A stretch of DNA of 64,000 nucleotides from Pseudobutyrivibrio sp. ACV-2 (GTDB lineage Bacteria; Bacillota; Clostridia; Lachnospirales; Lachnospiraceae). The stretch is taken from the NCBI RefSeq assembly GCF_900107545.1, contig NZ_FNQZ01000002.1, forward strand, positions 372,001-436,000, read 5' to 3'. Every line of letters begins with the position of its first letter. Position 1 is the stretch's first letter. Under the pieces are notes generated by a model. The model was given only the letters and a program-made list of their open reading frames with translations. It was not told the origin of the DNA and did no database searches. Below are positions 3,046 through 23,978 of the stretch, piece by piece. Both the position numbers and the translations under genes were made by a program.

Positions 3046-4155
3046 TTACAATATCTCGTCGTTGAATATTACGATTGGGTTTGGTAGGTCCATGGATATG
3101 AGTTGGGTTACGATTTCGTCGTAATACATGTTGCAGATGATGATGGCGGTGTCAGGCGGCAGGTCTTTTAGACTCTTGGGATCTTTGATTTCAAGTCCAT
3201 AAGCTGTTTGGCCCCAAAGTGCAGGATTATTATCGCATGTAAATAGAGGTGTATTATCTACACCAAAATGTTCCATATATACTTTGCACATGTTACCTGC
3301 ACCAAAGAGTGCCCTTGATTCGTATTTGCGGATTGTGTCCTCTATTGATATCAGGTACTCGAAGTAGTGGCCTATCTCAATGATACGGCTCGACATCACA
3401 GGTTTCATCAGGCCTGGGAGGTTCCACTGTGTGGAACTTATATCAATTAAAATGTCACCTTCAAATTTTATTTTTCTGATGGCCTTTATTATGCCTCCCC
3501 AGTTTATCCAGCTTTGACCATTAGAAGCATTTGAAAATGGCAGGGCGGCAGAGTCTTCCTGTCCATTATTTTCTATTGGGATAATCAATCCTAGTTCTTC
3601 TTTGAGGCCATCTATCAACTCTGGAATGTTTTGTCCGCACAGATTTGCTACGCCTGTATCTAATGCCAGTTTAAATGGTTTGTTCGCGTATGCCCTGTTC
3701 AGGTTTTCGATAAAATCCTTTAGTTGGTAGGCATCTGATAGGAAGCCTCTGTTATAACTTCCGTTATATATGTCGTATTGATTTTTGATGAGGATAGTGA
3801 TGTCTGTGTCCTTTAAGAGCTCTGCTACCTCAAGATACATTTGGGTAATTTCATCTTTTTTCAGGGAAGTTTTTTTATCCCATGCATATGGCTCTATCAG
3901 GATAGACCTACAGCCCAAGTCTTTAGCTGATATGATGCTCTCTTTAAAGAGTCGCTCCATGGCTGCCTTGGGACGGGTTTTTATTTCTTTTTCCTGAAAG
4001 CACAAGGCCTTGGATAGTTTTATTTCCTTGCCCTGAGTCACTGATTTTTTCATAAATGCTTCAGCCAGAAAATGAATGCCTTCATCGCCATCCATTACAG
4101 GTGGTTTCTTGAATCGGTTGTAATCTATATAGTCGCTGGTTGTGATTACTTTCAT
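3046..4155 (-). CDS. TIM-barrel epimerase-like protein with C-terminal Rossmann-like module
   Basis: I chose the ATG at 4155 because TGGAG lies about six bases upstream; an in-frame ATG at 4167 is possible. Residues 1-270 follow a xylose isomerase-like TIM-barrel plan (ILIEPYAWD, LALDTGVANLCG, DILIDISS), less well conserved at the metal sites than the neighbouring 314-residue protein. Residues about 280-369 are the island's recurring module: RALFGAGNMCKVYMEHF, then CDNNPALWGQ, then IIICNMYYDEIVTQL. The cytidylyltransferase fusion starts only 28 bases upstream, so the two are probably co-transcribed. Function is inferred as sugar or polyol isomerisation tied to surface-polymer synthesis; the substrate is unknown. 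Confidence 0.8.
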   Translation of the reverse strand: MKVITTSDYIDYNRFKKPPVMDGDEGIHFLAEAFMKKSVTQGKEIKLSKALCFQEKEIKTRPKAAMERLFKESIISAKDLGCRSILIEPYAWDKKTSLKKDEITQMYLEVAELLKDTDITILIKNQYDIYNGSYNRGFLSDAYQLKDFIENLNRAYANKPFKLALDTGVANLCGQNIPELIDGLKEELGLIIPIENNGQEDSAALPFSNASNGQSWINWGGIIKAIRKIKFEGDILIDISSTQWNLPGLMKPVMSSRIIEIGHYFEYLISIEDTIRKYESRALFGAGNMCKVYMEHFGVDNTPLFTCDNNPALWGQTAYGLEIKDPKSLKDLPPDTAIIICNMYYDEIVTQLISMDLPNPIVIFNDEIL

Positions 4156-4183
4156 ATGTTTCTCCATAAAATATGTGTGTTAA

Positions 4184-6556
4184 TCAATCCGTATTTTCGA
4201 TATTTTTTGCAGTTTCGGTATTCTCCCGGAGCTGCTCCTTCAGCATGGTGGAGCTTACCTCCTCGGTGTATGGGAAAAATATCAGGTCACTGCCTCGCTG
4301 CCTTAAGTACTCCCTGGTGGCGAGCCAGTTTGGGTCGTTCTCATAATCACTTCCTGAAAACTGAACGTCAAACTGGTAGGTGTTGTATGCGTATTCCGAG
4401 CCTGCGTCCTCTATTGGAATGGTGACTGCTTCGTCCACATATCTGCAGCCCTGCACTATGGCAAATCGCTGAATGAATGGGATTACAGGTCTGGTCTTTT
4501 TGTATTTAAGAATCTGCTCATCGGTGACAATGCCCACTATCAGATAATCGCACTGCTCCTTGGCACGTCTCAGCAGGTTCAAATGGCCCACATGAAACAT
4601 GTCAAAAACTCCAGCTACGTAGCCTATGTGGTATTTCTTTGGAGGGGCATCTGCAGTGGCTGTTGGAATGTGCTTTGGTGGCTTTGGATAGGTTAGCCAA
4701 GGGTTGAAAATACCTATGTGTGTGATTCCCATTTCTTTTAGCTGAGTTAGAACCTCATCGTAAAATTTGATGCAGATGAACACTTTTAGGCCTGTCTTTT
4801 CGGTGAGAAGATGAGCCGGTTCGTAAATACGTATTCCCTCAAGGTCTTTTCCCCACTTTGCACTATTGTTATCAATTATTCCTGCTATCACATATTGGTC
4901 TCTGAATCTTTTAACAAATTTTGTAGCGTAGTCTCCTGAGCCGAAGATATATAATTTTTTGCCGTCGGCATCTTTGAAAATATCAGTGAATAGTTTTTCG
5001 TATTCCGCTTGTGGATAATCCATACGAAAGCGGTTGTTGGTGAGTGTGCCGTGATGTGGTTGCACCTTTCCATAGTATGCTTGCAGTTCATTGTCATTTA
5101 TGAAATCCAACAAATGTTTTCTTATCTGAAGTCTGAACATTTCTGCATGTGTGGATAGATTGAAATGGTCAAGCACCTGCTGCAAAGGCATTAGTTTTTC
5201 TCCTTCATTCCAACCGGCATAGACCACCTCGATTGTCCTTAAAAATATTGCATTTGCTGGGAACTGCCTGATATAAAACTCCTGGTCAAAATACAGCGGG
5301 CCTGTCTCTGTCCTAAAACAGTTTATCGGGGCAAGATCCAGATAGCCACGCTCTAAGATAACTCCGATTGCAGCTTTATCTTCCTCTGTGCCATGGGCCA
5401 GGTCACGCCATTTATAAAGTTCTGGGTCGTCAGGCTTTCTTTTCTCCCAGTAGGGATCAAACTTTGTCCAGTCCACTTCATCATAGGACAGGTTATTTGA
5501 AGAGTGTTCTATGATATTTTTAATAGTTGTAAGTGTTATGATGAAATCATTCTGACCATTTTTGATAAGAGTGTCACGGAGATAGTCTGTCAAAATCTGG
5601 CCCTTGATGAATGGTGTCTCGTAACCATTTTCCGTGAAGTTTCCTGTAATTACAGGCACGCCGCGGTCATTAAGATATCTGGCATTTTCATCTGTCTCTT
5701 CCAGACTTTTTAGGCCTTCTGGATACATGTTCTTTTTTACAACCTTATCCGTATATACGATAGTGGCCTGGGCAGCCTCAGGCTTACGGCCTGTCTGCAC
5801 AGTGATTTCCTGTATGGATTTTATGTCTGTGATTTCATTGGATATAGCTTCACTTGAATCTATCTGACGGCACACAAACAAATAACCATCTGCCATGGTA
5901 TGTAGCAAGCCATGCTTCATGAAGTCATCATATATGCTTGCTTTATCTAAAAATACTGATTCCGGTGCATTGTAGATTCCCTGAAGTCTTCCGTCAAAGC
6001 GCTCATTTGGCGTCTCCCCATATTTCACCATTATCTGCGGGCGGAAAAGGTTTGGGAATAGGGAAAAGGTGGTAACTGTTTCAAGACCTGCAGTTGTTAA
6101 CATCTCTTCTATTTCAAGCTTTGTATAGCATCTGCCATCCATTTCCTTCATTCTATGTGGGACAATTCTTTTATAATTGTCAAGACCATCCAGCACATGC
6201 CCTGTGGTAACGTCTTTATCGCCCACCACCTGTCCTATATTTAGCCTGTTAAATGTTGCAAGAAAGAGGATGCCGTCACCCTTAAGGAGTTTCCTGATTT
6301 GAGCTAATAATCCTTTTGGCTCCAGCGTGCTTTCCAATCCTGCTGCAACGATGATGTAATCATATCCACCATCTACAGTGCCAATTTCCGAGATATCCAC
6401 ACTTTCTGCCTTGATTCCCACATCTTCAAATACAGAAAAAAGCACCTTAAAGGCAGGATACCTCCCTGTGATTAAAAGTGCTTTTGTATCCTTTTTGAAA
6501 TTGTACCAACTGATGAGCCCCCGTGGTAAATCCTTCACATATCTGTTAACGTCCAT
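4184..6556 (-). CDS. Four-part fusion: methyltransferase-like, kinase-like, Rossmann-like module, TagD-type cytidylyltransferase
   Basis: A 790-residue protein after a strong GGGGAGAG site. Residues 1-235 resemble a class I SAM methyltransferase, but motif I (ALLITGRYPAF) lacks the usual glycines. Residues 270-510 resemble a choline/aminoglycoside kinase fold: LDLAPINCF followed by PLYFDQEF matches the usual Asp...Asn...Asp-x-Glu layout loosely. Residues about 530-620 are the recurring Rossmann-like module (LYIFGSGDYATKF, IDNNSAKWG, DEVLTQLKEMGI). Residues 643-790 are a TagD/LicC-type cytidylyltransferase with GVFDMFHVGHLNLL and SSTMLKEQL. Known members make CDP-alcohols such as CDP-glycerol. 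I infer production of a CDP-activated alcohol for polymer decoration, with the kinase-like part perhaps supplying the phosphate. Confidence 0.85.
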   Translation of the reverse strand: MDVNRYVKDLPRGLISWYNFKKDTKALLITGRYPAFKVLFSVFEDVGIKAESVDISEIGTVDGGYDYIIVAAGLESTLEPKGLLAQIRKLLKGDGILFLATFNRLNIGQVVGDKDVTTGHVLDGLDNYKRIVPHRMKEMDGRCYTKLEIEEMLTTAGLETVTTFSLFPNLFRPQIMVKYGETPNERFDGRLQGIYNAPESVFLDKASIYDDFMKHGLLHTMADGYLFVCRQIDSSEAISNEITDIKSIQEITVQTGRKPEAAQATIVYTDKVVKKNMYPEGLKSLEETDENARYLNDRGVPVITGNFTENGYETPFIKGQILTDYLRDTLIKNGQNDFIITLTTIKNIIEHSSNNLSYDEVDWTKFDPYWEKRKPDDPELYKWRDLAHGTEEDKAAIGVILERGYLDLAPINCFRTETGPLYFDQEFYIRQFPANAIFLRTIEVVYAGWNEGEKLMPLQQVLDHFNLSTHAEMFRLQIRKHLLDFINDNELQAYYGKVQPHHGTLTNNRFRMDYPQAEYEKLFTDIFKDADGKKLYIFGSGDYATKFVKRFRDQYVIAGIIDNNSAKWGKDLEGIRIYEPAHLLTEKTGLKVFICIKFYDEVLTQLKEMGITHIGIFNPWLTYPKPPKHIPTATADAPPKKYHIGYVAGVFDMFHVGHLNLLRRAKEQCDYLIVGIVTDEQILKYKKTRPVIPFIQRFAIVQGCRYVDEAVTIPIEDAGSEYAYNTYQFDVQFSGSDYENDPNWLATREYLRQRGSDLIFFPYTEEVSSTMLKEQLRENTETAKNIENTD

Positions 6557-6794: not shown

Positions 6795-7868
6795 CTACTC
6801 AATGCCAGAATTCACGAATACATCATAAATCCGTTGATACCTGTATCCCTTTTTCATTACACTGGAATCTGGAATAAGTATACCTAAAGTAACCAACTGA
6901 TCAATTACTTTGGAGACAACATTTACAGATACTCCAGAAGCATCCACTACTTCCTTTTTGGTAAAAACTATTTGTTTAAATATTACCGGCATAATCTTAT
7001 ACACTGAATTTCCTTTTACAGCCTCAATAGTCTGCATATCTTCCTTATAGATTTTTTTGACTTTTTCAAGTTTGTAGATATAGGCTGAACACTGATCAAT
7101 GGTGCATTGTAAAAAGAATTTAATATACCCCATTACGTTTCCTCTTCTCATTTCCATGAGATTTCTCTGGTAGGAAGGTTTGTATAATTCAATAATCTCT
7201 GACATATAAAGCATAGGTCTGGTCTCATCCAAAACTGCCATCTGTACTGGTATAAGTGCCCTTCCTAATCTTCCATTACCATCTTTATAAGCATGTATGG
7301 TCTCAAACTGTGCGTGTGAAAGCGCCACGTTAATTAAAAAAGGGTCTATGAACAAACTATTCATATACTCATATAGGTTTATCAGTAACCCATAGACTTG
7401 CTCTGGAACAGGCGGTACAAATGTAGCCGTTTCCAATGTACATCCTCTTGGTCCAATCCAATTCTGCGTAGTCCTTATTCTTCCTGGCGTCTTCTCTGAG
7501 CCCCTTACACTATCCAATAGTATTTTGTGCATCTCATTTACCAGTTCATAGGTAATTCCGCCTGAAATATTACTCTCTGCGTAGCCAATTGCTCTTTTTA
7601 GATTTTGTATTTCCTTATTATCGTCTGTTTTTTCCATATATTTCAGGTAAAACATTTCATCCTGAGATATCTGAGTTCCTTCAATCTGTGTAGATTTATA
7701 GCTTTCTGTTAATAATACTGAATCTAAGAAATATGATGCATCAAATTCCAAAGTATTAAGCATGGCTTTGTACTCACCATACTTTGTATTCGCCTCAGAT
7801 AGTAATCTAAGAAACTCCTTATCCATTTCATATTCTAAAGGCATTGTTTTTGCAATATACGGTTCCAT
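6795..7868 (-). CDS. Fic-family protein (class II, with own inhibitory helix and C-terminal winged helix)
   Basis: The ATG at 7868 is preceded by TTTAGGAG with good spacing; a TTG 13 codons earlier also opens the frame. The Fic core is HAYKDGNGRLGR at residues 192-203, close to the HxFx(D/E)GNGRxxR consensus, with Tyr for Phe. Known members transfer AMP or other nucleotides to proteins. STQIEG at residues 59-64 matches the [S/T]xxxE[G/N] inhibitory-helix motif placed N-terminally, as in class II Fic. The last 90 residues look like a winged helix (FTKKEVVDASGVSVNVVSKV). Two TATAAT boxes lie upstream between the start and palindrome copy 2. Probably an autoinhibited AMP-transferase; the target is unknown. 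Confidence 0.9.
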   Translation of the reverse strand: MEPYIAKTMPLEYEMDKEFLRLLSEANTKYGEYKAMLNTLEFDASYFLDSVLLTESYKSTQIEGTQISQDEMFYLKYMEKTDDNKEIQNLKRAIGYAESNISGGITYELVNEMHKILLDSVRGSEKTPGRIRTTQNWIGPRGCTLETATFVPPVPEQVYGLLINLYEYMNSLFIDPFLINVALSHAQFETIHAYKDGNGRLGRALIPVQMAVLDETRPMLYMSEIIELYKPSYQRNLMEMRRGNVMGYIKFFLQCTIDQCSAYIYKLEKVKKIYKEDMQTIEAVKGNSVYKIMPVIFKQIVFTKKEVVDASGVSVNVVSKVIDQLVTLGILIPDSSVMKKGYRYQRIYDVFVNSGIE

Positions 7869-7927
7869 TTCTACTCCTAAACAAGATTTTTTCACTATTT
7901 TAATCAAATTATAGTATTATAAGAGCA

Positions 7928-7962
7928 AAAAATCACTGTTTTTTCAAAAAACAGTGATTTTT
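7928..7962. repeat. 35-nt perfect palindrome, copy 2 (upstream of fic)
   Basis: Identical in all 35 bases to the copy at 6756-6790. On the minus strand it lies directly before the two TATAAT boxes of fic, so it could be an operator at the -35 region as well as a terminator for upstream transcription. The two copies bracket fic almost exactly. Confidence 0.9.
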
Positions 7963-7987
7963 CATCTTCTACATATATCCGTCACTC

Positions 7988-8146
7988 TTAAAAACCTGAG
8001 GCATTCGTGATTACACCTTTCATGGAAAATTCTAGTATAAGATGAGCATTATTCTTGATAATTACTTTAAATGAGTTCATTTCGTCCTCTGAATAGCTAA
8101 CTATATCTTTCCATTCATAATCTGGCGAACCGCAAGTAGCCTTAAT
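7988..8146 (-). pseudogene. Short coding-like remnant, about 52 codons, no proper start
   Basis: This frame reads like real protein (SPDYEWKDIVSYSEDEMNSF, then KVIIKNNAHLILEF) but opens just after a stop codon and has no ATG, GTG or TTG with a ribosome site at its head. The only ATGs are internal. It lies between the XRE regulator and fic. I do not recognise the family. The simplest reading is the 3' end of a gene whose 5' part was lost; a small gene starting at the internal ATG is less likely. Confidence 0.4.
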
Positions 8147-8158
8147 TTAATATTGATA

Positions 8159-8491
8159 TTAGTACTCACCGTTCTCCAATAATAACAAATCCAAATATCT
8201 CACAAGTTTCTGCTGCTTACCCAAATCCAACTTTCTAAACTTTTCAATCAAGTCGCTATATTCTGAGTAGGAACTGCTTACAGATGTCTTTTTTTCTGAA
8301 ATCTCTAGTAATTCACTGGGATTAATCTCCAATGCTTTGCATACCTCTACTATTTTATCGGCACCTGGTGTCTTCCCCTTGCGCTTCCAGTCGCTAATTG
8401 TACTCTCTGGTATCCCCGTCATCTGCGACAAACTCTTTTGAGATATTCCTCGTTCTTTAAGTAGTGTAAATATTTTTTCGTTAACTATCAT
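8159..8491 (-). CDS. XRE-family helix-turn-helix regulator
   Basis: A 110-residue protein with a Cro/CI-type HTH in residues 5-60: SQKSLSQMTGIPESTISDWK is the helix-turn-helix core, followed by ICKALEIN-like spacing (VCKALEINPSELLEI). The C-terminal 45 residues are charged and probably helical, as in dimerising XRE repressors. The ribosome site is weak. It follows the JAMM-peptidase gene and its small partner and precedes fic, so it probably regulates this islet; the nearby 35-nt palindromes are candidate operators. The regulated gene is an inference. Confidence 0.85.
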   Translation of the reverse strand: MIVNEKIFTLLKERGISQKSLSQMTGIPESTISDWKRKGKTPGADKIVEVCKALEINPSELLEISEKKTSVSSSYSEYSDLIEKFRKLDLGKQQKLVRYLDLLLLENGEY

Positions 8492-8553
8492 CTCTAGTGC
8501 TTCTCGATTCTTCTAAAAAAAGCGGTACAATAATACCGCTTTAAAAGATAATA

Positions 8554-8736
8554 TTATAAATATGGTAAAAATGTCGTTCCTGCAACAACAAGTTTCTGTG
8601 CCGGCTTGTGCTTAGCTGAGTCGCCAGGCAGTTTTCCCAATTCTTTTAATAATCGCTCTTCTTCTTTTTTCAAGTCTTTAGGAGACATGTTTAAGTACCT
8701 TTCGGAAATCTTAAATGTATCGTTTTCCATTATCAT
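8554..8736 (-). CDS. Small protein of 60 residues encoded just after a JAMM-type peptidase
   Basis: GGAGGTG lies about 7 bases before the ATG at 8736, and the gene overlaps the end of the upstream peptidase gene by 26 bases, which suggests translational coupling. The protein is charged and lysine-rich (SPKDLKKEEERLLKELGKLP is probably helical) and ends in a short hydrophobic tail, VVAGTTFLPYL. No family is recognised. Its position suggests a substrate, partner or inhibitor of the peptidase, but nothing in the sequence proves this. Confidence 0.7.
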   Translation of the reverse strand: MIMENDTFKISERYLNMSPKDLKKEEERLLKELGKLPGDSAKHKPAQKLVVAGTTFLPYL

Positions 8737-9325
8737 CAACACACACCTCCTCAAAATCTATATCAAAATAACTCTTCATATTTTCTAATGCCAGTATCTG
8801 TGCTTCACACTCATTATATCCCCTGGAAAAATAATCAGCAACCTTAATCTCATAATACTGAGGGTTGATATATTCACCTGCCGAATAAAAATATACAGCG
8901 CCATTATGGCAAATAACTAACCCTGCAAAGTATTCATTAGTATAGTTTGTATTAAAATCATCTATACTTGGAGGAAAACTACTTGGATGCGTGTGTACCG
9001 TTAACAAAAAACTATATTGATCCTTTTTATATTTCCTAATTGTTGAGATAGTCTTTCTAGAATACTCAATTCTACCGTCTATAGCAGCATCTGTTTCCTC
9101 AGCAACAATTTGGCATTTTCCAACATCAAGCCAGAACATATCCTCTCTATGTGTTCCGGTTCTGTGTATCAGCATACGTTTTGCTAAATCATATATCAAT
9201 CTGTTCAATGCTGGATTATCTGAAATAGTATCAAACTTTCTCCTGTAATCACTACTATCAATATATGATTTATTAATCTGAGTTTCTTTATTCCTCCCTA
9301 ATCTCTGTTCTTCTTTTTCTAACAC
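8711..9325 (-). CDS. JAB/JAMM-type (MPN) metallopeptidase-like protein
   Basis: A 204-residue protein starting at a GTG with AGG about 8 bases upstream. HTHPSSFPPSIDDF at residues 111-124 gives the His-x-His-Pro...Ser-x-x-Asp pattern of JAMM zinc proteases, though the gap before Ser is about one residue shorter than in many members. The catalytic Glu is probably in the segment near EETDAAIDG. Known JAMM proteins cleave isopeptide bonds or C-terminal tails. No signal peptide is seen, so it is cytosolic. It is coupled to the 60-residue gene and followed by an XRE regulator and fic, a context typical of accessory or defence islets. The defence role is inferred. Confidence 0.7.
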   Translation of the reverse strand: MLEKEEQRLGRNKETQINKSYIDSSDYRRKFDTISDNPALNRLIYDLAKRMLIHRTGTHREDMFWLDVGKCQIVAEETDAAIDGRIEYSRKTISTIRKYKKDQYSFLLTVHTHPSSFPPSIDDFNTNYTNEYFAGLVICHNGAVYFYSAGEYINPQYYEIKVADYFSRGYNECEAQILALENMKSYFDIDFEEVCVDDNGKRYI

Positions 9326-9457: not shown

Positions 9458-10708
9458 TCATTGTATATATGATACCAACACTTCTATACTTAAACCTTCC
9501 CTTATTTCGAAGATTTTTTCTTCATTCACTCCAGCAGACATTAGCTGGCGCTTTAACTCTGGCGTACTTTTTCGACCGGTGATAATATATCTGTAATCCG
9601 TATTTACGTTTTTCATGTCTGGCTTTTGGACTATATAGCCTAATAAGTTTTGCCCTACTATGGCAGGGTTGTTGTCTACTACTTTTTTTATAGCTTTGAC
9701 ACCAAGGATTTTTTGAGCTAAAAGTACCTCCTGTCCTATGCCTGCCGCACCCCACAGAATGCAATTAGTTTCATTTTTAAGAATTTGAAGCAGACTAGGT
9801 AATCTATCTATTGCTTCTTCTACTAACTTCAGACTGTTTAAATCAACGATGCCTTCTTCTACTGCCTGCAAAAATTTCTGTCTAGGTACAGAATGAAGTC
9901 GCTTGGCATTCCATAAATATGAACCCTTTTTTACCAATTCATAAAATTCTACTGCATCCGGTGTTTCTAAACTCCTGGTTTTCAACTCATTTCTAAGCCA
10001 GTCAAATTCTTCCTTGATACACAAGTACTTGCTGTCATCTTTGGTTGATGATTTTACATTGTCCACCCTGTACAGGTAAATAGGCTTTTGAGAGAATTTT
10101 ATTTTCTGTGCATAAAGCGCGCATAATACACTAAAACCTACATCCTGATAAGATGCTCCTGGGCTTTCGTTGCAGATAATGTGATTGTCTGTGAGGAATT
10201 GTTTTCTGTAGAGACCAGTCCAAATATGGGTGTAGGCATTTATCCTGTATTGCGGTTCATGATTTATCTCTATGATTCTTTCATGATCTTCTGCAGGAAC
10301 CAAAGAGCAAGGCAATAATATCCGCTGAGTGCCTTCTCTGAGGAACATTGTAAAGCTTCCTTTTACATAATCGACTTCTGGCTCCATAGCTGTGATAAGC
10401 TCTTGTAAAAAGCCAGGGTCATATTCATCATCTGATTCTAGAATAGCTATATATTCACCAACAGCTGCTGCAATACCCACATTTATCTTATGACCATAGC
10501 TAGAATTTGAATCTGCAATTATTCTAATACGCTGATCCAATTCAGCATAGCTTTCTAGCATAGTAAGTGAATCATCATCTCCACTTACTATAAAAATGGC
10601 CTCAAAATCAGCAAAAGACTGCACATTTAGGCAGTCTTTTATCCTTGGAATATATTTAGCTGAATTATGAATTGTTATGATGATTGAAATAGTAGTTTTT
10701 CTGTTCAT
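9458..10708 (-). CDS. GT2 glycosyltransferase with C-terminal Rossmann-like module
   Basis: Residues 1-220 are a GT-A fold family 2 transferase: ISIIITIHNSAKYIPRIKD at the start, then NVGIAAAVGEYIAILESDDE, where ESDDE supplies the Asp-rich metal site. Residues 225-305 are helical linker. Residues about 308-400 are the island's module (CILWGAAGIGQEVLLA, VDNNPAIVGQ, YIITGRKSTPELKRQLM). Known GT2 enzymes add one sugar from a nucleotide sugar to a lipid-linked or polymer acceptor at the inner membrane face; no membrane helix is present. Donor and acceptor cannot be assigned. First gene of the polysaccharide island on its downstream side. Confidence 0.88.
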   Translation of the reverse strand: MNRKTTISIIITIHNSAKYIPRIKDCLNVQSFADFEAIFIVSGDDDSLTMLESYAELDQRIRIIADSNSSYGHKINVGIAAAVGEYIAILESDDEYDPGFLQELITAMEPEVDYVKGSFTMFLREGTQRILLPCSLVPAEDHERIIEINHEPQYRINAYTHIWTGLYRKQFLTDNHIICNESPGASYQDVGFSVLCALYAQKIKFSQKPIYLYRVDNVKSSTKDDSKYLCIKEEFDWLRNELKTRSLETPDAVEFYELVKKGSYLWNAKRLHSVPRQKFLQAVEEGIVDLNSLKLVEEAIDRLPSLLQILKNETNCILWGAAGIGQEVLLAQKILGVKAIKKVVDNNPAIVGQNLLGYIVQKPDMKNVNTDYRYIITGRKSTPELKRQLMSAGVNEEKIFEIREGLSIEVLVSYIQ

Positions 10709-15389: not shown

Positions 15390-15408
15390 ACACATATCCC
15401 TTTTAACA

Positions 15409-17085
15409 CTATTCAAAAAGTCCTGTTACTTTTCTCTCTAATTCCCACCGATAATAATTCTCTTTACTACCTTTCTCAACATTCATTCTTCCATACTGAA
15501 TAGTTCCCAAATCCACGATTTTCTCTTGCATTATCGGTAGTGACAATATCTCTTTTAATTCTTTTTTAGGAGTAACTCCATCAGATTCCATCATACTAAC
15601 CTGCGCAAATTCCTCCTCCGAATACGTACCCCAATTTAAGATTTTAGTAAAGAAAACCTCATCCACTCCCAATTCAAGTCCCCATTTTACAAAGCCTGGC
15701 ATCTCCTTGTAATTCATAGCTTGAACCACAAAGTTTAACCGCATATACGATAATTCACCATTTTTTCGGAGTGAAGCTGCATATTCCATATTCTTTTTCA
15801 GAATATCAAAATTTCCTCCTCTTCGAATCGCTTCATACGTTGATTTCGTAGCTGCATCAATTGATATTGTTATCATTATTTTTGCTGATGTAGTTTCACG
15901 CAGCATTCTCCAATTTTTCTCATTAAAGAGAAGTCCATTTGAAAGAAGTCTTATCCATTTTGTATCTTTATTTGCCTTGCATGTCAAAAGATTTCGGTAT
16001 TGCTTACTCATTAGAGTTTCACCATTACCTGCAGAAATATAGAACTCACAATCTGGCAATAATTCTTCTTTTATCTTATTGCTAATAATATCTAACTTTT
16101 CCTGTTCTTCTTCACATGCCACCTTATAGCTATCTCGGCAAGTAATACACTTAAGATTACATGTCTCATCGAATCCTACAGCTACTGTTGTGGGACTAGC
16201 TTCCATTTTTTTATATGGAGAAGACAAGTCTGTCCCCGCTTTATTATAAGTTCCAATAAAAAATGGACACATATCTTTTCTACAAAAACTATATGTCTTA
16301 TTCACATTTGAAAGGCACATAATTTTATGAATTGAAGAACTCCAAAGTTCTCCAGCCGACTTATTCAACAGACTACCCAAAGAATGATATATAAATGTTG
16401 AGCAACAACAGATACTATTCCCATCTGTACCAACTTCCATATGATTTAACATTGTTCTGCAACCCAAATCATAGCAACTCTTGTCAAATATCGTCCGCTT
16501 TAATAATTCCGAAGGCAAAGCGATATACTCTTCGTCAGTGCAATAATCCTCCCAGTGTTTAAACCCCCACTGCTGAAGCTGCTGTATTATTTCCTGATTC
16601 TTTCTTATGGCAACTATGATAAAGTGCTTGCTGCATAAATCGATATCTGGTTTTAGTATCTCTACCTCATTAAATTTCTTACCATATTTATATGTATCAA
16701 CATAGCACTGTGGTTTTATTGTCTTGTCCCATTCAAGGAGCTTACCCGCTGCTATTCCTGTTCCCCAGATTAGAATTGGTTTGTTGTTGGAATTAATCCT
16801 ATCTGAATTGAGTTGCTCAAAAAAGGTGTCTTCCGCCGTATAATCACATGAACTCAATCCCAGTTCATTAAGAACTTTTATCTTATCTTTTTTATCGAAA
16901 TCACATACAATTAGCTTATTAAACTCACCTTTATGAGGTATGATGTCTTTCGATGAATAAACTGGTGCTCCTAGAAATCTACTCTCTACATACTCATCAT
17001 CGAAAAAGCACACTATTTCTAGATTGTCAAATATATACAAGAAATCTTTGCTGACTCTGTTTACACCATAAATAGCATACTTCAT
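15409..17085 (-). CDS. Radical SAM protein with two N-terminal Rossmann-like modules and a SPASM-like segment ahead of the radical SAM core
   Basis: The ATG at 17085 follows GTGGGGTGG; the frame opens five codons earlier. Residues 1-85 and 95-185 are two successive modules (YAIYGVNRVSKDFLYIF; PILIWGTGIAAGKLLEW). Residues about 205-285 are cysteine-rich (NSICCCSTFIYHSLGSLL, AGELWSSSI, then CRKDMCPFF), which resembles a SPASM/twitch domain. The radical SAM motif CNLKCITC follows at about residue 308, with ISAGNGETLMSKQYR as the glycine-rich segment. So the accessory cluster domain comes before the core, opposite to the usual order. Reaction unknown; known relatives modify peptides or sugars. 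Context suggests glycan modification. Confidence 0.85.
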   Translation of the reverse strand: MKYAIYGVNRVSKDFLYIFDNLEIVCFFDDEYVESRFLGAPVYSSKDIIPHKGEFNKLIVCDFDKKDKIKVLNELGLSSCDYTAEDTFFEQLNSDRINSNNKPILIWGTGIAAGKLLEWDKTIKPQCYVDTYKYGKKFNEVEILKPDIDLCSKHFIIVAIRKNQEIIQQLQQWGFKHWEDYCTDEEYIALPSELLKRTIFDKSCYDLGCRTMLNHMEVGTDGNSICCCSTFIYHSLGSLLNKSAGELWSSSIHKIMCLSNVNKTYSFCRKDMCPFFIGTYNKAGTDLSSPYKKMEASPTTVAVGFDETCNLKCITCRDSYKVACEEEQEKLDIISNKIKEELLPDCEFYISAGNGETLMSKQYRNLLTCKANKDTKWIRLLSNGLLFNEKNWRMLRETTSAKIMITISIDAATKSTYEAIRRGGNFDILKKNMEYAASLRKNGELSYMRLNFVVQAMNYKEMPGFVKWGLELGVDEVFFTKILNWGTYSEEEFAQVSMMESDGVTPKKELKEILSLPIMQEKIVDLGTIQYGRMNVEKGSKENYYRWELERKVTGLFE

Positions 17086-17192
17086 CGTTCCACCCCACAA
17101 ACTTGTTGCTACTATTTTACTCTATTTTGTCAAAATATACTCTATCATTCACAGAATGTTGAGAATTTTCGCAAAATTCATCATCATAAAGA

Positions 17193-17238: not shown

Positions 17239-18765
17239 TCAGTTCTCAATCAAAGAGCCAATAACCGTATCTAGTGAAATGATCTTTTTTATTCCTTTTT
17301 CTTCAAGTGATTGTTTGATATTCACATAGTCGTATGTAACTGATACAACAACCATATCAACTTCTGGCAAATCATTTTGCAATGTATAAACCGGAAATGA
17401 TTTCTTTATTGCCTCACCTTTCCCATCAATGCCATACTCAATTGTTATCGATGATCCCTCCAAATCCATTAAAAAATGTGTACCAAGCATTCCCAATCCA
17501 TACACAGCAATTCGCTTTACACCTTTTCGTTCAAAGTATTCTGCTGTTGAAACACCTCTTTCTTTCAACATCATCCATTTATCAAAGATTTTCCAGTAAC
17601 TTCGATATTGAGTTATGGTCTTCTCAACTTTTTCTAATTCTATATCGGATTCCATACTATGTGTTTTTTTATTATCTTCAGAACTCTCATTCTGCGCTTC
17701 ATATATCGCCTCTAAGAATCGATATCCCCATTCCTCATCTGGCTCCAAATACATTGTCTCTCCCCACTCATTCCATGCGTTTATAAATACAAATTCATTT
17801 TCCAAATCTACGCTTTGTTTTATGATTTCCCGTATATAATCCTTAAACACGTCTGGATTTGAGTTGATAACAGCAATTCCCGCTTTATGTCTTCTAGGAG
17901 TGTCATCATACCCAGGGAAGGCTGATAAATATGTTTTCTTCTTCAGATTTCTCACTTGACGCTGAATCTTAATACTTTTTTCAACAATCTCACTATAATC
18001 AATAACTGCTGCAACCTTGTCATCGAGTTTTCTATATCTATCTGGATAACTCCTTCTAAACGAATACTGTGGTTCCATATTTAACCTGGCATCACACGAT
18101 TCACTTTCCACATTCGTCGAAATGAAATATATACCATTAAATCCGTTTTTCCTAGCCAATTTATTCCATAATTCAACCATTTCTGGAAGGCAAAATATCT
18201 CATCAGATTTATATATTAAAAAAAGCGGCTTGTTCCCCACTTTTATATATCTATCATCTTTAAAGAATTTTAAAAGATATTCAAAATGGCTTGCCCAATC
18301 CTCTTCATCTCCATACCCTTGTTCAAGTAATATACCGTCACTACTCTCTTGATTTGAGTCATTTTCCAACGACCATACATTTTTCGAACTCATTTTGCTC
18401 CAGGATCTAGCCCAGGTTTCATTCGCCCAAGAAAAACAAAATGGCATATCAATATCTTTCCATTGCAAAAGATTCTCTGCTGGCTTCTCTAATATTTTGC
18501 GTCCATCTTTAAAATAATAATGGTAAAAACACATACCATACACGCCATATTTATGCATCAAATCAGCCTGCCACTGCATAGTCTCTCTCTCCAAAAGATT
18601 GTAATAATATCCATCTTTTGGAATTTTAGGCATAATATGCCCCTCAAACAGTGGTTCTGCAGATTTTACAGACGTCCATTCTGTAAATCCCTCTCCCCAC
18701 CATTTGTCATTTTCAGGCGTTCTATGAAATTGCGGTAGGTACATTGAGATTATTTTCATATCCAT
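17239..18765 (-). CDS. WbsX / GH99-like protein with C-terminal Rossmann-like module
   Basis: Residues 1-350 match the WbsX-type glycan-locus family (GH99-like TIM barrel): IISMYLPQFHRTPENDKWWG, GFTEWTSV, YGVYGMCFYHYYF, PFCFSWANETWARSW and FVFINAWNEWGE. These proteins are known from O-antigen and capsule loci and are proposed to act on or transfer sugars. Residues about 370-410 are linker and 418-508 the recurring module (RIAVYGLGMLGTHFLMDL ... VDMVVVSVTYDYVNIKQSL). The ribosome site is weak. It stands between a GT2 gene and the radical SAM gene. Hydrolase versus transferase activity cannot be decided here. Confidence 0.85.
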   Translation of the reverse strand: MDMKIISMYLPQFHRTPENDKWWGEGFTEWTSVKSAEPLFEGHIMPKIPKDGYYYNLLERETMQWQADLMHKYGVYGMCFYHYYFKDGRKILEKPAENLLQWKDIDMPFCFSWANETWARSWSKMSSKNVWSLENDSNQESSDGILLEQGYGDEEDWASHFEYLLKFFKDDRYIKVGNKPLFLIYKSDEIFCLPEMVELWNKLARKNGFNGIYFISTNVESESCDARLNMEPQYSFRRSYPDRYRKLDDKVAAVIDYSEIVEKSIKIQRQVRNLKKKTYLSAFPGYDDTPRRHKAGIAVINSNPDVFKDYIREIIKQSVDLENEFVFINAWNEWGETMYLEPDEEWGYRFLEAIYEAQNESSEDNKKTHSMESDIELEKVEKTITQYRSYWKIFDKWMMLKERGVSTAEYFERKGVKRIAVYGLGMLGTHFLMDLEGSSITIEYGIDGKGEAIKKSFPVYTLQNDLPEVDMVVVSVTYDYVNIKQSLEEKGIKKIISLDTVIGSLIEN

Positions 18766-18912: not shown

Positions 18913-20100
18913 TTACAAATTATATAAATCCAATACTCTTATTATATCTGTGTGCTTCATGTCTAACTTAGCTATCTTATTGCTATCAATCCCTAAAGAA
19001 ATAAGTTCATTTTTTATTGATTCTCTTAACTTAGTTCGCGTTGCCATAATAAGTATTTTGTCCATTTCTTTTTGCCTACGAACTAGTTCTGAGGGTGTGT
19101 CAATTTTGAATCCACTTATCTCTCCTGTTTTTTCTTTATCAACTACCATTACTATATTATTTCTATCATGCCTTGATAGCACGCGCAGATATTCTTGTCC
19201 CATATCTCCACATCCATAAATTGCCACTTTTTCTTCTATTTTAACATTAAACGGGAATATATCATCCTTATAATACGCTTGTAGCAGATTATAATCGGCA
19301 AGCATCATATCTCTTACCATTTGTAAAATTATTTGGTTTTCAACTTTCTTCCATATTTCTTTTTTCAAAAACTGTGCCTTAAGATATTCATAAAACTTCT
19401 TCTCTGATTCCATTAAATCTTTTGAATGTGTTCGGCAAAATGACTCCTCATGAATCCTATAACAATATACTATCTGCCCTGTAGATAATACTTTATCTAC
19501 ATTAGCCATAATATTCCATACACAGGCCACATCCTCCGACATACGAATATCATTTGGGCAACTCATTATTATTTCGCGAATCGACTCTATTTTATACATC
19601 CCGCCCCATAAAGAGGTAATCATTTTGCTCTCGTAAAAGCATTTATCATTTATAAAATCACATGCTAACTCTATACCAGAATAAGTCCCGCGTGCAACGT
19701 TTGTTATCACAGACTCTTTATCCCTATAGACCTTTTTACAATCATAAAGAACTACATCAACATTATTCATTCTGGCTTTATTAACAAGACTCTGTATTAC
19801 ATCATTTTGTTGGACTAACCAATCGTCTGCATCTACAAATAAGCACCATTTTCCTGAAGCTAATTCTAACCCTCTTTTTCTTGCTGCGATTTGACCAGCA
19901 TTATTCTGGTATTCATACTTTATTACTTCTGGGTATTCTTTTTTGAACTCTCGGCATAGTTTCTCCGAATCATCTGTAGAACCATCATTGATTAGTATTA
20001 TCTCTTTGTTTGGATAATCCTGCGCAATAATACTGTTTATGCATTGTCCTAGATATTTCCCAGCATTATATATTGGTATTATTATGCTTACTTTGTCCAT
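18913..20100 (-). CDS. GT2 glycosyltransferase with C-terminal Rossmann-like module
   Basis: Residues 1-105 carry the GT2 signature: VSIIIPIYNAGKYLGQCINS, ILINDGSTDDSEKLC, IAARKRGLELASGKW and LFVDADDWL. Residues 110-280 are the helical acceptor region. Residues about 285-390 hold the module (KVAIYGCGDMGQEYLRVL, MVVDKEKTGEISG, ILIMATRTKLRESIKNEL). GGCGGAA precedes the ATG, and the upstream radical SAM gene ends 22 bases away, so the genes are likely co-transcribed. Inner-face membrane association is expected from the family; no helix is visible. Confidence 0.92.
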   Translation of the reverse strand: MDKVSIIIPIYNAGKYLGQCINSIIAQDYPNKEIILINDGSTDDSEKLCREFKKEYPEVIKYEYQNNAGQIAARKRGLELASGKWCLFVDADDWLVQQNDVIQSLVNKARMNNVDVVLYDCKKVYRDKESVITNVARGTYSGIELACDFINDKCFYESKMITSLWGGMYKIESIREIIMSCPNDIRMSEDVACVWNIMANVDKVLSTGQIVYCYRIHEESFCRTHSKDLMESEKKFYEYLKAQFLKKEIWKKVENQIILQMVRDMMLADYNLLQAYYKDDIFPFNVKIEEKVAIYGCGDMGQEYLRVLSRHDRNNIVMVVDKEKTGEISGFKIDTPSELVRRQKEMDKILIMATRTKLRESIKNELISLGIDSNKIAKLDMKHTDIIRVLDLYNL

Positions 20101-20122: not shown

Positions 20123-21256
20123 TTACTGAATATTTATCGTGTCACAGTACTTACAGTGCGGCCAATTCCCTCTGCCTTTATATAATGCTTCTCTCACTTC
20201 ATTAAATCTCTTTCCATACCATACTTCTTTTAGTGACTGCGTGCTTAAATCCCCTAAGGTATCTCTCCCTAGTGGATCATTACAACACAGAGAGACCTCA
20301 CCTGTTGGTCTGATTATTAGTTGTTTAAATGGTAGTGCACATCTTACGTCCTCAAATGTACTATCCATTTCATGATTAGGTGCATCTCCACCTCTAGACG
20401 AAAGAACTTCATTCGATTTTCTAAGAACTATAGTAACTTTATTTATTAATTCAGGGTGATTTTCACAATATGCAGCTATTATTTTGTTATTTGATATCAG
20501 TTCTAGTTCTTGGTTATAATTATCAATTATTAACTCATCCAAATAGTCTACCACCTGCAGAAATTTTTCTAACGTCAAAAGGGTACCGTTAGTAAACAAG
20601 TGCATTCTAGCCTTAGGCAACTTTTCTCGTGCATATTTCAACCTATCAATAATATTAGGATCTAAAAACGGTTCATTATTTGAGAAACAAGCTAATTTCC
20701 CCTGATAATCTAGTTCAGATAATTCATCAATTATCTTTTTAAACAATAATTCTGACATAATGGCATATTCTCTAGGGTCTTGATTGCGGTTAACAGGACA
20801 GAATGCACACACGCCATTGCATCGATTTATGGTCTCTATTTCAACATGATCAAATAAAGGAACCTTATCATGTAATTCCTCTACATTAGCATTAATAGTA
20901 TCAATTGCTAAACGTATCCTTTCCTTTTCACTTTCCTCTGTTCTAGAATTCCCATCATATGGATTAAAAACAATCTCGTTTGTTGAATAGTATGCACGAG
21001 GGTCTGAAACAAAGTATTCATAGTTAGTAACCCCCAATTTATCTAGTTGTTTTTTCATCATCTCAACATTTCGACTAGCAATTAATACTTTATAATCGCA
21101 ATCATCTAGCAATACCTCAACTGGTTTGATCTGAATTCCATCGACATTTTTCCCTTGAAGTTCTTTATTATTATCGACTATATATGCAACTTTTGATTTG
21201 TACATTGAAACTGCTTGTTTTCCAATTATTCCAGCGCCAAATACTACTATCTTCAT
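20123..21256 (-). CDS. Radical SAM/SPASM protein with N-terminal Rossmann-like module
   Basis: Residues 1-95 are the module (MKIVVFGAGIIGKQAVSMY, IVDNNKELQG, YKVLIASRNVEMMKKQL). The radical SAM core begins near residue 147 with CNGVCAFC (CxxxCxxC), followed by FSNNEPFLDP and RMHLFTNGTLL. A SPASM-type C-terminus carries VSLCCNDPLGRDTLGDL, LKEVWYGKRF and HCKYC. This is the usual core-then-SPASM order. GGGGT precedes the ATG. Relatives oxidise or rearrange peptides and sugars; the substrate is unknown. A stub nearly identical to its module start lies just upstream at 21535-21591. Confidence 0.88.
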   Translation of the reverse strand: MKIVVFGAGIIGKQAVSMYKSKVAYIVDNNKELQGKNVDGIQIKPVEVLLDDCDYKVLIASRNVEMMKKQLDKLGVTNYEYFVSDPRAYYSTNEIVFNPYDGNSRTEESEKERIRLAIDTINANVEELHDKVPLFDHVEIETINRCNGVCAFCPVNRNQDPREYAIMSELLFKKIIDELSELDYQGKLACFSNNEPFLDPNIIDRLKYAREKLPKARMHLFTNGTLLTLEKFLQVVDYLDELIIDNYNQELELISNNKIIAAYCENHPELINKVTIVLRKSNEVLSSRGGDAPNHEMDSTFEDVRCALPFKQLIIRPTGEVSLCCNDPLGRDTLGDLSTQSLKEVWYGKRFNEVREALYKGRGNWPHCKYCDTINIQ

Positions 21257-21477: not shown

Positions 21478-21534
21478 TATAAATATCTCCTAAAGCATTC
21501 AATAGTAAATCGCTATACAATTTTGATTTTTACA

Positions 21535-21591
21535 TCAAGATAAAGCCTGCTTTCCCATTATCCCTGCACCAAATATTATTATCTTTTCCAC
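21535..21591 (-). pseudogene. 18-codon stub of a Rossmann-like module gene
   Basis: From a GTG with AGGTGAT upstream the frame reads VEKIIIFGAGIMGKQALS and stops. It is closely similar to the first residues of the radical SAM protein encoded 0.3 kb downstream (KIVVFGAGIIGKQAVS). The start region and ribosome site are kept while the rest of the gene is gone, so it is a remnant of a second module-bearing gene. Confidence 0.7.
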
Positions 21592-21603
21592 TTAAATATC
21601 ACC

Positions 21604-22782
21604 TCATATACTAATACGTAAAATCTTTTCTTCTTTAATCCTTAAATCTTTTAGTTCTTTTATAATCTGTTCAACCATAGTTCCCCTCAATACCGCTATA
21701 AGCACATAATCATATTTTTTTTCTGCCATTATAGTTTTAATATCATAATCATTATTTCCACCATCTTTTTTATCTAGCCACAAAACAACAGAAATACTGA
21801 ACTTATTCTCCAGAATACCCTTTAGTCTCTTACCAAATCTACCAGCTCCATAAAGTATAATTTGATTCCCCGGTTTAAGATTACCTAATGGATATATTTT
21901 TCCATTTCTGTTTTCTATAATACTCTCTGGTACTTGTAATAAGGTCGAATATAGAATTAACGCGTTCACTCCGTTTAGAATTGAATAATTTTCCTTATCC
22001 AAAAAATTATTAAGATTAATTTTTAAATTTTTCTCTAAACACGCTATTCGCATTTCTTCATCTTTTAAATTGTTATCCATACAAGACCCACTACGTATTC
22101 GATAATGATAAAAAGCTTTATGAATAATCATCATGCTATTAGCAGAATACACACACGGATACACTATTGCTGCATCTTCACCCACATTAATTCGATCATC
22201 TACATTCTTATATAGCGTCTTTATAAGTGCTGATTTAAATAGTTTGTTATATACATGTATATTTATACCAGATTCAAAAAAAACACCCGTATATACGGCA
22301 ATAGGATAAATCTTATTTTCTAAATCATCTCTGTTATAGTACCCTTCTTTACACTGATCAAATTCGTCAACAGTATGTTTTCCATAGTCTCTTTTTACTC
22401 CAGAGGTAATTATATCTGGCATAAAATCCGAAGATAACTCAATCATTTCTTGATACATTACTGGTTCAATCCAGTCGTCTCCATCAACAAATGTTATATA
22501 CTCTCCAGTCGCAATATCTACACCAACTTTACGCGCACCTATAATTCCCCCATTAGATTTATGTACTACTTTTATTCTGCTATCAATTTTCTTATAGTTG
22601 TCAACTATATCTCCTGAGGAATCTGTAGAACCATCATCGACAAGAATTATTTCTAATTTCTTATATGTCTGATTAATAATACTTTCTATACACTCAGGTA
22701 AATATTTCTCAACATTATATATGGGAACAATTACACTAATATATGGTTTCACTAATTCATTATATTTATTTTTATCGTACAT
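21604..22782 (-). CDS. GT2 glycosyltransferase with C-terminal Rossmann-like module
   Basis: Residues 14-115 show ISVIVPIYNVEKYLPECIES, ILVDDGSTDSSGD, GARKVGVDIATGEYITFV and VDGDDWIE, the GT2 signature. Residues 120-290 are the helical part. Residues about 295-390 hold the module (QIILYGAGRFGKRLKGIL, WLDKKDGGN, YDYVLIAVLRGTMVEQI). Cytosolic, probably acting at the membrane on a lipid-linked glycan. A decayed GT2 fragment lies directly upstream. The donor sugar is unknown. Confidence 0.92.
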   Translation of the reverse strand: MYDKNKYNELVKPYISVIVPIYNVEKYLPECIESIINQTYKKLEIILVDDGSTDSSGDIVDNYKKIDSRIKVVHKSNGGIIGARKVGVDIATGEYITFVDGDDWIEPVMYQEMIELSSDFMPDIITSGVKRDYGKHTVDEFDQCKEGYYNRDDLENKIYPIAVYTGVFFESGINIHVYNKLFKSALIKTLYKNVDDRINVGEDAAIVYPCVYSANSMMIIHKAFYHYRIRSGSCMDNNLKDEEMRIACLEKNLKINLNNFLDKENYSILNGVNALILYSTLLQVPESIIENRNGKIYPLGNLKPGNQIILYGAGRFGKRLKGILENKFSISVVLWLDKKDGGNNDYDIKTIMAEKKYDYVLIAVLRGTMVEQIIKELKDLRIKEEKILRISI

Positions 22783-22797
22783 AATGATATCCGCATT

Positions 22798-22937: not shown

Positions 22938-22979
22938 TTACAAATATTTTGATTCACTTTTAACCTAACTATCTAATAT

Positions 22980-23978
22980 CTATTTCGAAATAACCAATGT
23001 TCCATTTGCATCTGGTATAGGAACTTTTTTTAAACCTCTTCCTGTTTCTATTTCATATCTATCTACAGCTTTTTCTACACCTAACAAACTACTATTGTAG
23101 TCATGAATAAATATATATCCTCCTTCAGACATTTTAGGATAAAAGTACTTTATTCCCTCATATATTGATTCTTCAAAATCCATATCCAAAGAGACAAATG
23201 CAAAACTATCATTTATTCCTTCTGCTGAAGCCGGAAAAAATCCTTGTTTTACTACTATTTGATCAAGATTATCCATTTTTTCTAAGACTGACATTATATT
23301 TGTATCTTTGTACGCTTCAATAAATGCTTCTGTGCAATTTCCATTCTTTTTTTCGCTCACAGCTTCATTAACATCAAAACCATCAAACGTATCAAATAAA
23401 TACAACTTTCTATCCGGAAAAGCTTTGTTTATATATTGAGCAAATTCACCTCTAAAAACTCCAGCTTCTGCGACTTCCCCTTTTATATCTTTTTTTCTTA
23501 TTTCTTTTACTACCAATTCGAATGTTTTTATCCTTACATAATCTGTTTCCATATAAGAATCACTTAGATACTTTGTGTTTTCGAAGCATAAAACACCATA
23601 CGCCTCCGTTCCTCTTACTACGTGATATCGTTTTTCTATAACTTTTGCATATTTTTCACCTACTATTTGTTCCACAAAACTATAGTCTTCATTTATATCC
23701 TTCAGGCAACAGTTTCCATATAAAAAGATAAACTTGTCTAAATCTAATCCAATTTTTTTTGCTTGATTATATATTTCTTTAGATCCTAATGTACATACGA
23801 TTACAGCATCATATTCTTTATCTATTAAATCTTCTGGCGTAAGAACTTTTTTACTAAAGTATTCCTTTTTATTAGGATTGTTATCAATAAACGCTTCTAT
23901 TCTCTCTATTGGTATCCATCTATCGAGGATTTTTCCTGCCAATCGACCTGTTCCCCAAAAGTAAATCTTTCCTGCCAT
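22980..23978 (-). CDS. TylF/MycF-type O-methyltransferase with N-terminal Rossmann-like module
   Basis: The ATG at 23978 follows AAAGGAT; the frame also opens eight codons earlier. Residues 1-95 are the module (KIYFWGTGRLAGKILDRW, FIDNNPNKKEY, YDAVIVCTLGSKEIYNQA). Residues 130-332 match macrocin-type sugar O-methyltransferases: VAEAGVFRGEFAQYINKAF, LYLFDTFDGFD, SLDMDFEESIYEGIKYFYP and YIFIHDYNSSLLGVEKAV. Known members use SAM and Mg2+ to methylate deoxysugar hydroxyls. It is the most upstream gene of this part of the island, followed by the decayed GT2. I infer glycan methylation. Confidence 0.9.
   Translation of the reverse strand: MAGKIYFWGTGRLAGKILDRWIPIERIEAFIDNNPNKKEYFSKKVLTPEDLIDKEYDAVIVCTLGSKEIYNQAKKIGLDLDKFIFLYGNCCLKDINEDYSFVEQIVGEKYAKVIEKRYHVVRGTEAYGVLCFENTKYLSDSYMETDYVRIKTFELVVKEIRKKDIKGEVAEAGVFRGEFAQYINKAFPDRKLYLFDTFDGFDVNEAVSEKKNGNCTEAFIEAYKDTNIMSVLEKMDNLDQIVVKQGFFPASAEGINDSFAFVSLDMDFEESIYEGIKYFYPKMSEGGYIFIHDYNSSLLGVEKAVDRYEIETGRGLKKVPIPDANGTLVISK

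Follow-up and report, generated by a model that had tools for sequence, protein, structure and literature searches.

The module and its carriers in the window

Between positions 3046 and 24002 on the minus strand of a 64,000-nucleotide stretch of the Pseudobutyrivibrio sp. ACV-2 genome (contig NZ_FNQZ01000002.1, positions 372,001 to 436,000; hereafter the window), genes for enzymes of several kinds share one small Rossmann-like domain of about 80 to 90 residues, which we call the module. To judge from sequence, some gut and rumen bacteria, chiefly Lachnospiraceae, have a type of surface-sugar locus in which the majority of the enzymes share this nucleotide-binding-like domain, at either end of the protein. 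An iterated profile search detected 14 modules in 13 window open reading frames (ORFs), the weakest with an E-value of 3e-6 (Table 1). Twelve intact genes carried 13 copies, one gene having two, and the remaining copy lay in a remnant ORF; with the remnant counted, 13 of the 17 ORFs in this part of the window bear a module. When the window modules were compared as single sequences, 30 of 91 pairs were linked at E ≤ 1e-3, the E-values being lenient for a database of 14 sequences.

The partner domains fell into eight Pfam families, namely GT2 (four genes), radical SAM (two genes), AP_endonuc_2, cytidylyltransferase, DUF1919, FkbM, TylF and WbsX; the AP_endonuc_2 match of the TIM-barrel gene (E 2e-4) and one radical SAM match, the latter narrowly, were below the cut-off. 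A preliminary description of the window had counted about 13 module-bearing genes or remnants, and this number held; the pattern is repeated in loci of other genomes. It had also placed the module C-terminally on the four GT2 enzymes, the WbsX protein and the TIM-barrel protein, N-terminally on FkbM, TylF, DUF1919 and both radical SAM proteins (twice in one), and internally in the 790-residue cytidylyltransferase fusion, and each of these placements was right. Its count of eight kinds of partner stands, with the two sub-threshold matches included, whereas its statement that these partners share no fold was too strong because FkbM and TylF share the S-adenosylmethionine (SAM)-methyltransferase fold and AP_endonuc_2 and radical SAM proteins are both TIM-barrel-like. 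The 790-residue fusion is laid out as a methyltransferase-like part, an unassigned part, the module and the cytidylyltransferase. A kinase-like character of its middle had been read by eye, and one stretch compared with Protein Data Bank (PDB) sequences returned nothing useful.

Within its own 3.66-Mb genome the module marks the locus and not the enzyme type. A profile built from 13 copies found 16 places at E ≤ 0.01, of which 15 were in the module locus and one was a weak match outside; this comparison is partly circular, as the profile was trained on those same copies (E 1e-16 to 1e-27 for them). At E ≤ 1e-10 the same genome gave 38 GT2 matches, in some cases two to a frame. All four in the locus have the module, and none of the 34 elsewhere shares a frame with a module match. 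If the matches are taken as independent, the chance that the four in the locus would be the module-bearing ones is 1 in 73,815.

Table 1. Module copies in the window, their carriers and the support for each (all positions in window coordinates)
Module position in protein	Carrier	Gene or ORF	Module interval	Strand	Support
C-terminal	xylose-isomerase-like TIM-barrel protein	3046-4167	3055-3327	-	profile
internal (residues 534-611)	790-residue fusion	4184-6556	4697-4966	-	profile and structure model
C-terminal	GT2	9458-10708	9500-9775	-	profile
	remnant ORF without catalytic domain	10762-11238	10765-11016	-	profile
N-terminal	DUF1919	12164-13036	12764-13036	-	profile; C2185-like_N 45.9 bits (cut-off 27)
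C-terminal	GT2	13037-14254	13079-13351	-	profile
preceding the methyltransferase domain, after 73 residues	FkbM methyltransferase	14313-15416	14943-15209	-	profile
second of tandem pair	radical SAM protein	15409-17100	16534-16788	-	profile and tandem model
first of tandem pair, lacking the second glycine of GxG	radical SAM protein	15409-17100	16825-17091	-	profile and tandem model
C-terminal	WbsX	17239-18765	17263-17523	-	profile
C-terminal	GT2	18913-20100	18961-19239	-	profile; PglD_N 25.0 bits (cut-off 23.4)
N-terminal	radical SAM/SPASM protein	20123-21256	21002-21256	-	profile
trace with internal TGA stop			21505-21588	-	profile, E 0.002
C-terminal	GT2	21604-22782	21607-21876	-	profile
N-terminal	TylF O-methyltransferase	22980-24002	23715-23978	-	profile

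A truncated GT2 ORF (11425-12084, minus strand) lies upstream, on that strand, of the remnant module ORF, and positions 10762-12084 look like one decayed GT2-module gene split in two.

Predicted fold, relatives and conserved positions

AlphaFold, applied to an alignment of 109 modules, predicted the order strand-helix-strand-strand-helix-strand-helix-strand, with a predicted local distance difference test score (pLDDT) of 96 and a predicted template-modelling score (pTM) of 0.86. By Foldseek, the best template-modelling (TM) scores were 0.76 for 3nkl and up to 0.76 for Rex, followed by 0.73 for WbaP (8t53), all three in the top ten, and 0.69 for 2g6t, which we take to be CAC2185; VioB and PerB complexes were among the fold matches. 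Searching PDB sequences with the module profile gave a similar set, with E-values of 2.7e-10 for 3nkl, 5.5e-10 for Rex, 1.7e-8 for 2g6t and 4.3e-6 for VioB, and weaker matches to WbaP (0.004) and the hexapeptide transferase 4m9c (0.0097). We assume that 3nkl is a member of PF13727 and that PerB, VioB and WeeI are members of PF17836 (PglD_N). The tandem copies of the radical SAM protein, modelled together, showed the same predicted fold (pLDDT 90.6), with a mutual packing that the pTM of 0.69 leaves unsettled and with an alignment of four sequences for the first copy; this model matched 2g6t first and otherwise gave mostly poor global matches.

Pfam models recognized the isolated modules unevenly. 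At E ≤ 1e-3, 28 of the 109 matched PglD_N, 12 C2185-like_N, 10 CoA_binding and 4 Methyltransf_14, and six further Rossmann-type models matched a few each; the matches sum to 66, so that at least 43 modules matched no Pfam model. The relatives guessed in the preliminary description (the CoA-binding, PglD_N and C-methyltransferase C-terminal families) were thus well chosen. PF13727 (CoA_binding_3) was absent from the ten families matched at this threshold, though the module profile does pick up chains of 3nkl and WbaP. Among the scanned window ORFs only the DUF1919 copy exceeded the C2185-like_N cut-off (PF22674, 27 bits), with the FkbM (16.5 bits) and GT2 (15.1 bits) copies below it; the own genome has one place over this cut-off, and a GT4 module of another locus (L061:14911) passed at 31.7 bits. 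For PglD_N (23.4 bits), the GT2 copy of gene 18913 and L036:10533 (28.0 bits) were over the cut-off and those of genes 13037 (18.8 bits) and 21604 (13.4 bits) were under. No window copy scored reached the CoA_binding cut-off (PF02629, 22.3 bits; 19.3, 14.2 and 13.0 bits), and neither the TIM-barrel copy (17.7 bits) nor L060:12028 (20.7 bits) reached that of the C-methyltransferase C-terminal family (PF08484, 23.5 bits). Sequence and predicted fold place the module in the nucleotide-binding mini-Rossmann group of PglD_N, CoA_binding_3, Rex and C2185_N, and none of the Pfam models covers it alone.

The copies had been described as related, and comparison of module profiles from 17 partner classes by hhalign agreed, 125 of 136 pairs reaching a probability of at least 95 in a comparison that held no outgroup; the single-module and tandem structure predictions, with their common fold, pointed the same way. 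Of the 11 pairs below 95, three were under 5 (lowest 3), and the ten weakest involved the TIM, DUF1919, WbsX, LicD, RgpF, CTP, GT2_N and Glyphos sets. Scored with the module profile, modules gave 20 to 75 bits (median 48), compared with 32.5 to 43.8 bits for 24 control proteins of Rex layout and 45.2 bits for one of PglD-like layout, these 25 fetched controls being classed by layout without a Pfam scan. Conversely, a Rex-layout profile scored 179 of 750 modules above 20 bits. With Rex scoring like a module and no outgroup control, the evidence for one family reaches the level of this group and does not extend to a clade apart from Rex. A match to Rossmann folds in general was considered and rejected: seven non-module proteins of the same loci, likely nucleotide-sugar dehydratases picked mainly by size, scored at most 7.1 bits. 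The profile therefore singles out the Rex, PglD and module group as a whole rather than modules as such, and hits of about 210 to 240 residues are probably Rex and should not count as fusions.

The predicted nucleotide-binding edge includes several of the most conserved positions. In 551 modules (non-redundant at 70%), Gly6 was present in 96%, Gly8 in 95% and an aromatic residue before the GxG motif in 95%; position 30 was Asp in 80% and Val in 12%, and position 62 was a small residue (A, T, C or S) in 87%. The eight most informative columns include both GxG glycines, the preceding aromatic and positions 30 and 62, the other three being elsewhere, and in the AlphaFold model strand 1 ends at GxG, strand 2 at position 30 and strand 4 at position 62. 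This signature was kept in most partner classes. Where Val occupied position 30 (81 of 750 modules), Ser or Thr followed in 77 of the 81, replacing Asp-Asn at the end of strand 2; this variant was common on RgpF (five of seven) and occurred also on GT2 and glycerophosphotransferases, and perhaps marks a second ligand class. The modules are under purifying selection nearly as strong as that on the catalytic parts. Over 54 related pairs, many of them of the CDP (cytidine diphosphate) fusion and TIM types and so not independent, the median ratio of nonsynonymous to synonymous substitution rates was 0.128 in modules, compared with 0.108 in partner domains.

Partners, spread and history of the module

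With the 790-residue fusion as query, we retrieved 480 stretches encoding a relative and kept 80 loci, of which 49 had Lachnospiraceae in their titles, a further 15 named genera that we place in that family, and 16 had other or uninformative titles, one being Selenomonadaceae. All 80 had at least one module (501 in total, the fusion itself counted). In the 72 loci with three or more module genes, 474 of the 616 genes between the first and last module carried one and 15 more had a weak match, a density that is not unbiased because the loci were found through a module-bearing gene. In the Pseudobutyrivibrio set without the window the module was on 174 of 266 genes. Four loci (L073, L074, L076 and L077) repeat genomes already included; they are inside the 80-locus, 72-locus and 551-module counts and were left out of the later label, tree and co-evolution tests, for which 750 of 773 modules were kept. 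Judged by the fusion, the nearest named relatives were Pseudobutyrivibrio sp. OR37 (67% identity) and P. ruminis AD2017 (66%), in a search from which very near records may be absent. Module matches at E ≤ 1e-6 occurred in 24 of 29 Pseudobutyrivibrio genomes and 5 of 32 outside the genus. A family sample of 120 genomes from 120 genera gave 44 with a match at E ≤ 1e-9 (16 with four or more), some single matches probably being Rex, and a phylum sample gave 151 of 299 genomes at E ≤ 1e-7, with many matches of about 210 to 240 residues that are probably Rex. Module clusters recur in a few other families. In one genome of the same family (G445) the 14 module matches were spread over several contigs, and a genome may thus have more than one module locus. 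There were also 31 module-only ORFs (e.g., L034:7202-7465 and L067:5947-6201).

Across the related loci, Pfam scans of cluster representatives and samples identified about 22 partner families. Beyond the eight of the window these were GT4, GT8, GT9, GT10, GT-D, RgpF, TOD1/MUCI70, LicD, CDP-glycerol glycerophosphotransferase, methyltransferase models (several, counted as one), MptE-like, TupA ATP-grasp, GNAT acetyltransferase and DUF4422. Partner labels were passed on by similarity. An initial set had called proteins of about 670 residues GT2 with an N-terminal module; three of three scanned had no GT2 match, and they were relabelled in what we term the strict labels. The first labels underlie the hhalign partner-class profiles, the signature by class, the substitution-rate pairs and the cross-partner identity pairs. 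By strict labels on 750 modules, most partners had the module at a nearly fixed end (GT2, 195 C-terminal and 0 N-terminal; TIM, 62 C-terminal; FkbM, 27 N-terminal and 1 C-terminal), and both ends were used by GT4 (26 N, 18 C) and radical SAM proteins (22 N, 2 C), with Pfam-confirmed examples at each end. This is most simply read as many independent attachments of the same domain. Two modules occurred in 10 of the ORFs listed, two of which are one protein of one genome fetched twice. The protein of about 670 residues stands at one end of the module run in eight loci (L047, L060, L035, L041, L053, L058, L063 and L069) and gave a HAD-type match in two of three scanned, one below the cut-off. It and the 790-residue fusion were together in none of 34 locus groups, the fusion being in seven and the protein of about 670 residues, by size, in nine, of which L064 has a different protein; in genome G012 a single copy of each occurs, at separate sites.

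The modules travel with their enzymes and are not homogenized within a locus or genome. On a weakly resolved FastTree tree of 451 modules and 79 columns (433 rows for the strict-label test), changes of partner label numbered 89 compared with 241 after shuffling and changes of terminus 39 compared with 162, whereas genome-label changes (399 versus 400.5 shuffled; 415 versus 416.6 with first labels) matched the shuffled values. Twenty-one module pairs of at least 45% identity sat on partners with no detectable similarity (e.g., GT2 and radical SAM, 47%), although some of these are different parts of one fusion family or have unlabelled partners. Such similar modules on unlike partners suggest that re-fusion continued.

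It is mostly the enzymes that build or decorate the polymer that carry the module, and mostly those that make nucleotide sugars that have none, as the family counts of two samples indicate. Among 102 of the 474 module proteins the commonest matches included GT2 (35), cytidylyltransferase (13), GT4 (10), AP_endonuc_2 (8) and FkbM (6), and epimerase and IspD were absent from the 25 of 37 families listed for them. From the same loci we sampled 110 of 127 genes without the module, 15 with weak matches having been removed; here one protein can match several families, and the commonest were NTP_transf_3 (13), Epimerase (10), IspD (10), GDP_Man_Dehyd (9) and NTP_transferase (6). Of nine flanks viewed, four had genes of ribulose-phosphate epimerase, IspD and alcohol-dehydrogenase type beside a weak glycerophosphotransferase match, a set that would fit a CDP-ribitol cassette. 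Together with the CDP-glycerol-type transferases and LicD, this cassette points to a teichoic-acid-like polymer as the probable product. Six of the nine flanks share a phosphoglucose isomerase gene and two neighbours, with locus content that varies, as in variable surface-antigen loci; the module locus is low in G+C and holds gene remnants. A flagellin glycosylation island was rejected as a general reading: Flagellin_N was present in 22 of 22 genomes, but among the matches listed it lay within about 25 kb of the module cluster in G002 and G013 only. Two loci have fusions to MptE-like proteins, presumably Maf-type, and for some loci that reading may apply.

Other window genes can be noted briefly. 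Inside the module locus (6795-9325, minus strand) are a Fic/DOC protein, a Cro/C1-type regulator and a 204-residue protein with no Pfam match, which resemble inserted cargo. At its upstream edge (24500-25262, minus strand) is a pair of HEPN and nucleotidyltransferase genes, which we take to be toxin-antitoxin-like. Farther on, proteins of 671 and 852 residues (28883-30898 and 34737-37295, minus strand) had no Pfam match at E ≤ 1e-3, with an ABC (ATP-binding cassette) ATPase gene and Gfo/Idh/MocA genes between them.

Possible roles and known systems

We lean, tentatively, toward the module being a nucleotide-sensing, probably dimerizing regulatory domain spread over a teichoic-acid-like assembly line. 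As a common domain on most enzymes that build or decorate one variable surface glycan, it would let each enzyme read the same small nucleotide, either a by-product of the pathway (uridine monophosphate (UMP), cytidine monophosphate or a nucleoside diphosphate) or, as in Rex, reduced or oxidized nicotinamide adenine dinucleotide (NAD(H)); in that way the entire line might be slowed or brought together regardless of which glycan enzymes a strain has. The preliminary description had offered a shared ligand or a docking surface, and the putative nucleotide-binding signature in most partner classes favours the former. Excerpts of a study of WbaP (PMC10942596) report that its comparable domain makes most of the inter-chain contacts of the dimer, that the isolated domain is stabilized by UMP, uridine diphosphate (UDP) and uridine triphosphate, and that the full-length enzyme is inhibited by UMP with a half-maximal inhibitory concentration of 4.1 μM; its authors raise the possibility of a broader part for these domains in modulating glycan flux.

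Several observations weigh against a nucleotide-sensing role. The same excerpts state that the WbaP domain is destabilized by the enzyme's own substrate UDP-galactose (PMC10942596), so ligand logic may differ between enzymes, and WbaP is itself a weak match to the module profile. The Rex-like sequence could point equally to NAD(H). Asp30 is at 14% in RgpF (n = 7), 40% in LicD (n = 5) and 50% in DUF1919 (n = 6) modules, residues other than Gly and Ala are frequent at the third glycine position, and the conserved glycines may be kept for folding alone. GT2 (8) and LicD (4) matches occur among the 110 sampled genes without the module, and the module is present on the CDP-forming fusion and the TIM barrel, both of which resemble precursor enzymes.

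The main rival, possible if more doubtful, is that the module is a docking tag, which would attach to further modules or to a single shared partner and so bring the enzymes together in a complex, its pocket being a structural relic. One module per enzyme, at either end and over most of the locus, is the pattern expected of a docking tag; ORFs with two modules exist, the modelled pair leaving a fixed packing open; and, according to the WbaP excerpts, that dimer is held mainly by the comparable domain (PMC10942596). Modules of one locus were also slightly more alike than expected with the first labels (z 1.7, reached by 15 of 500 shuffles), but under strict labels the excess was smaller (z 1.25, 34 of 300), and the tree showed no clustering by genome. 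Locus-wise co-evolution of modules was accordingly set aside as weak, gone or nearly so with strict labels and absent on the tree, and the data do not favour a locus-specific docking code, modules within a locus being little or no more alike than expected. No non-module family was common enough to serve as a hub, the top one accounting for 13 of the 110 sampled genes, and docking would need no conservation of the pocket residues.

Sensing and docking may be combined. We consider it a rather doubtful prospect that the module is a nucleotide-gated, self-associating Rossmann domain recruited by dozens of unrelated enzymes, by which a variable locus could swap enzymes freely while keeping the same metabolic signal and the same complex. 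Such a pathway-wide tag would be the cytosolic counterpart of cellulosome dockerins, with sensing added.

It is unlikely that the module is an auxiliary substrate domain that aids the catalysis of each enzyme by binding either the nucleotide sugar used as donor or the nucleotide that is formed, as PglD_N does with its UDP-sugar. PglD_N was the Pfam model most often matched, but methyltransferase and radical SAM partners should use no nucleotide-sugar donor, and the 34 GT2 matches elsewhere in the genome do without a module. A neutral leftover of gene fusion or domain shuffling in a recombining locus would suit the low-GC setting with remnants, the 21 similar modules on dissimilar partners and an identity slightly lower in the module than in the partner (0.84 versus 0.88 in 31 closely related pairs), but purifying selection, the conserved pocket positions and the module's presence on 474 of 616 genes make it highly improbable.

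If the module does regulate a glycan pathway as a whole, or bring its enzymes together, it offers a handle on how interchangeable enzymes are coordinated in bacteria with variable surface polymers, and it would extend the WbaP type of regulatory domain to a full pathway. Its presence on an uncharacterized gene of such a locus strongly suggests that the gene is part of this pathway, which should aid the naming of unannotated genes of gut and rumen Lachnospiraceae. We recognized no description of the module or its spread in the titles and abstract openings of the open-access papers that our searches listed, a scope largely outside subscription journals.

The closest parallels come from four known domain families. 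PF13727 (CoA_binding_3), of WbaP-type phosphoglycosyl transferases and PglF-type dehydratases, is likewise a small Rossmann-like domain fused to glycan enzymes; in the known systems, as far as the excerpted source describes them, that domain is linked to membrane bundles and confined to two types of enzyme, whereas the module joins about 22 partner families at either end. C2185-like_N (PF22674; 2g6t of C. acetobutylicum) has the same fold, but its Pfam model fits a minority of modules. PglD_N is a nucleotide-sugar site near glycan enzymes, known from hexapeptide acetyltransferases and not from a whole pathway. Rex (CoA_binding) is module-like in both sequence and fold, and has in addition a DNA-binding half; the aromatic residue that precedes GxG in nearly all modules is replaced in the Rex rows listed by Val, Ile or Ile-Gly.

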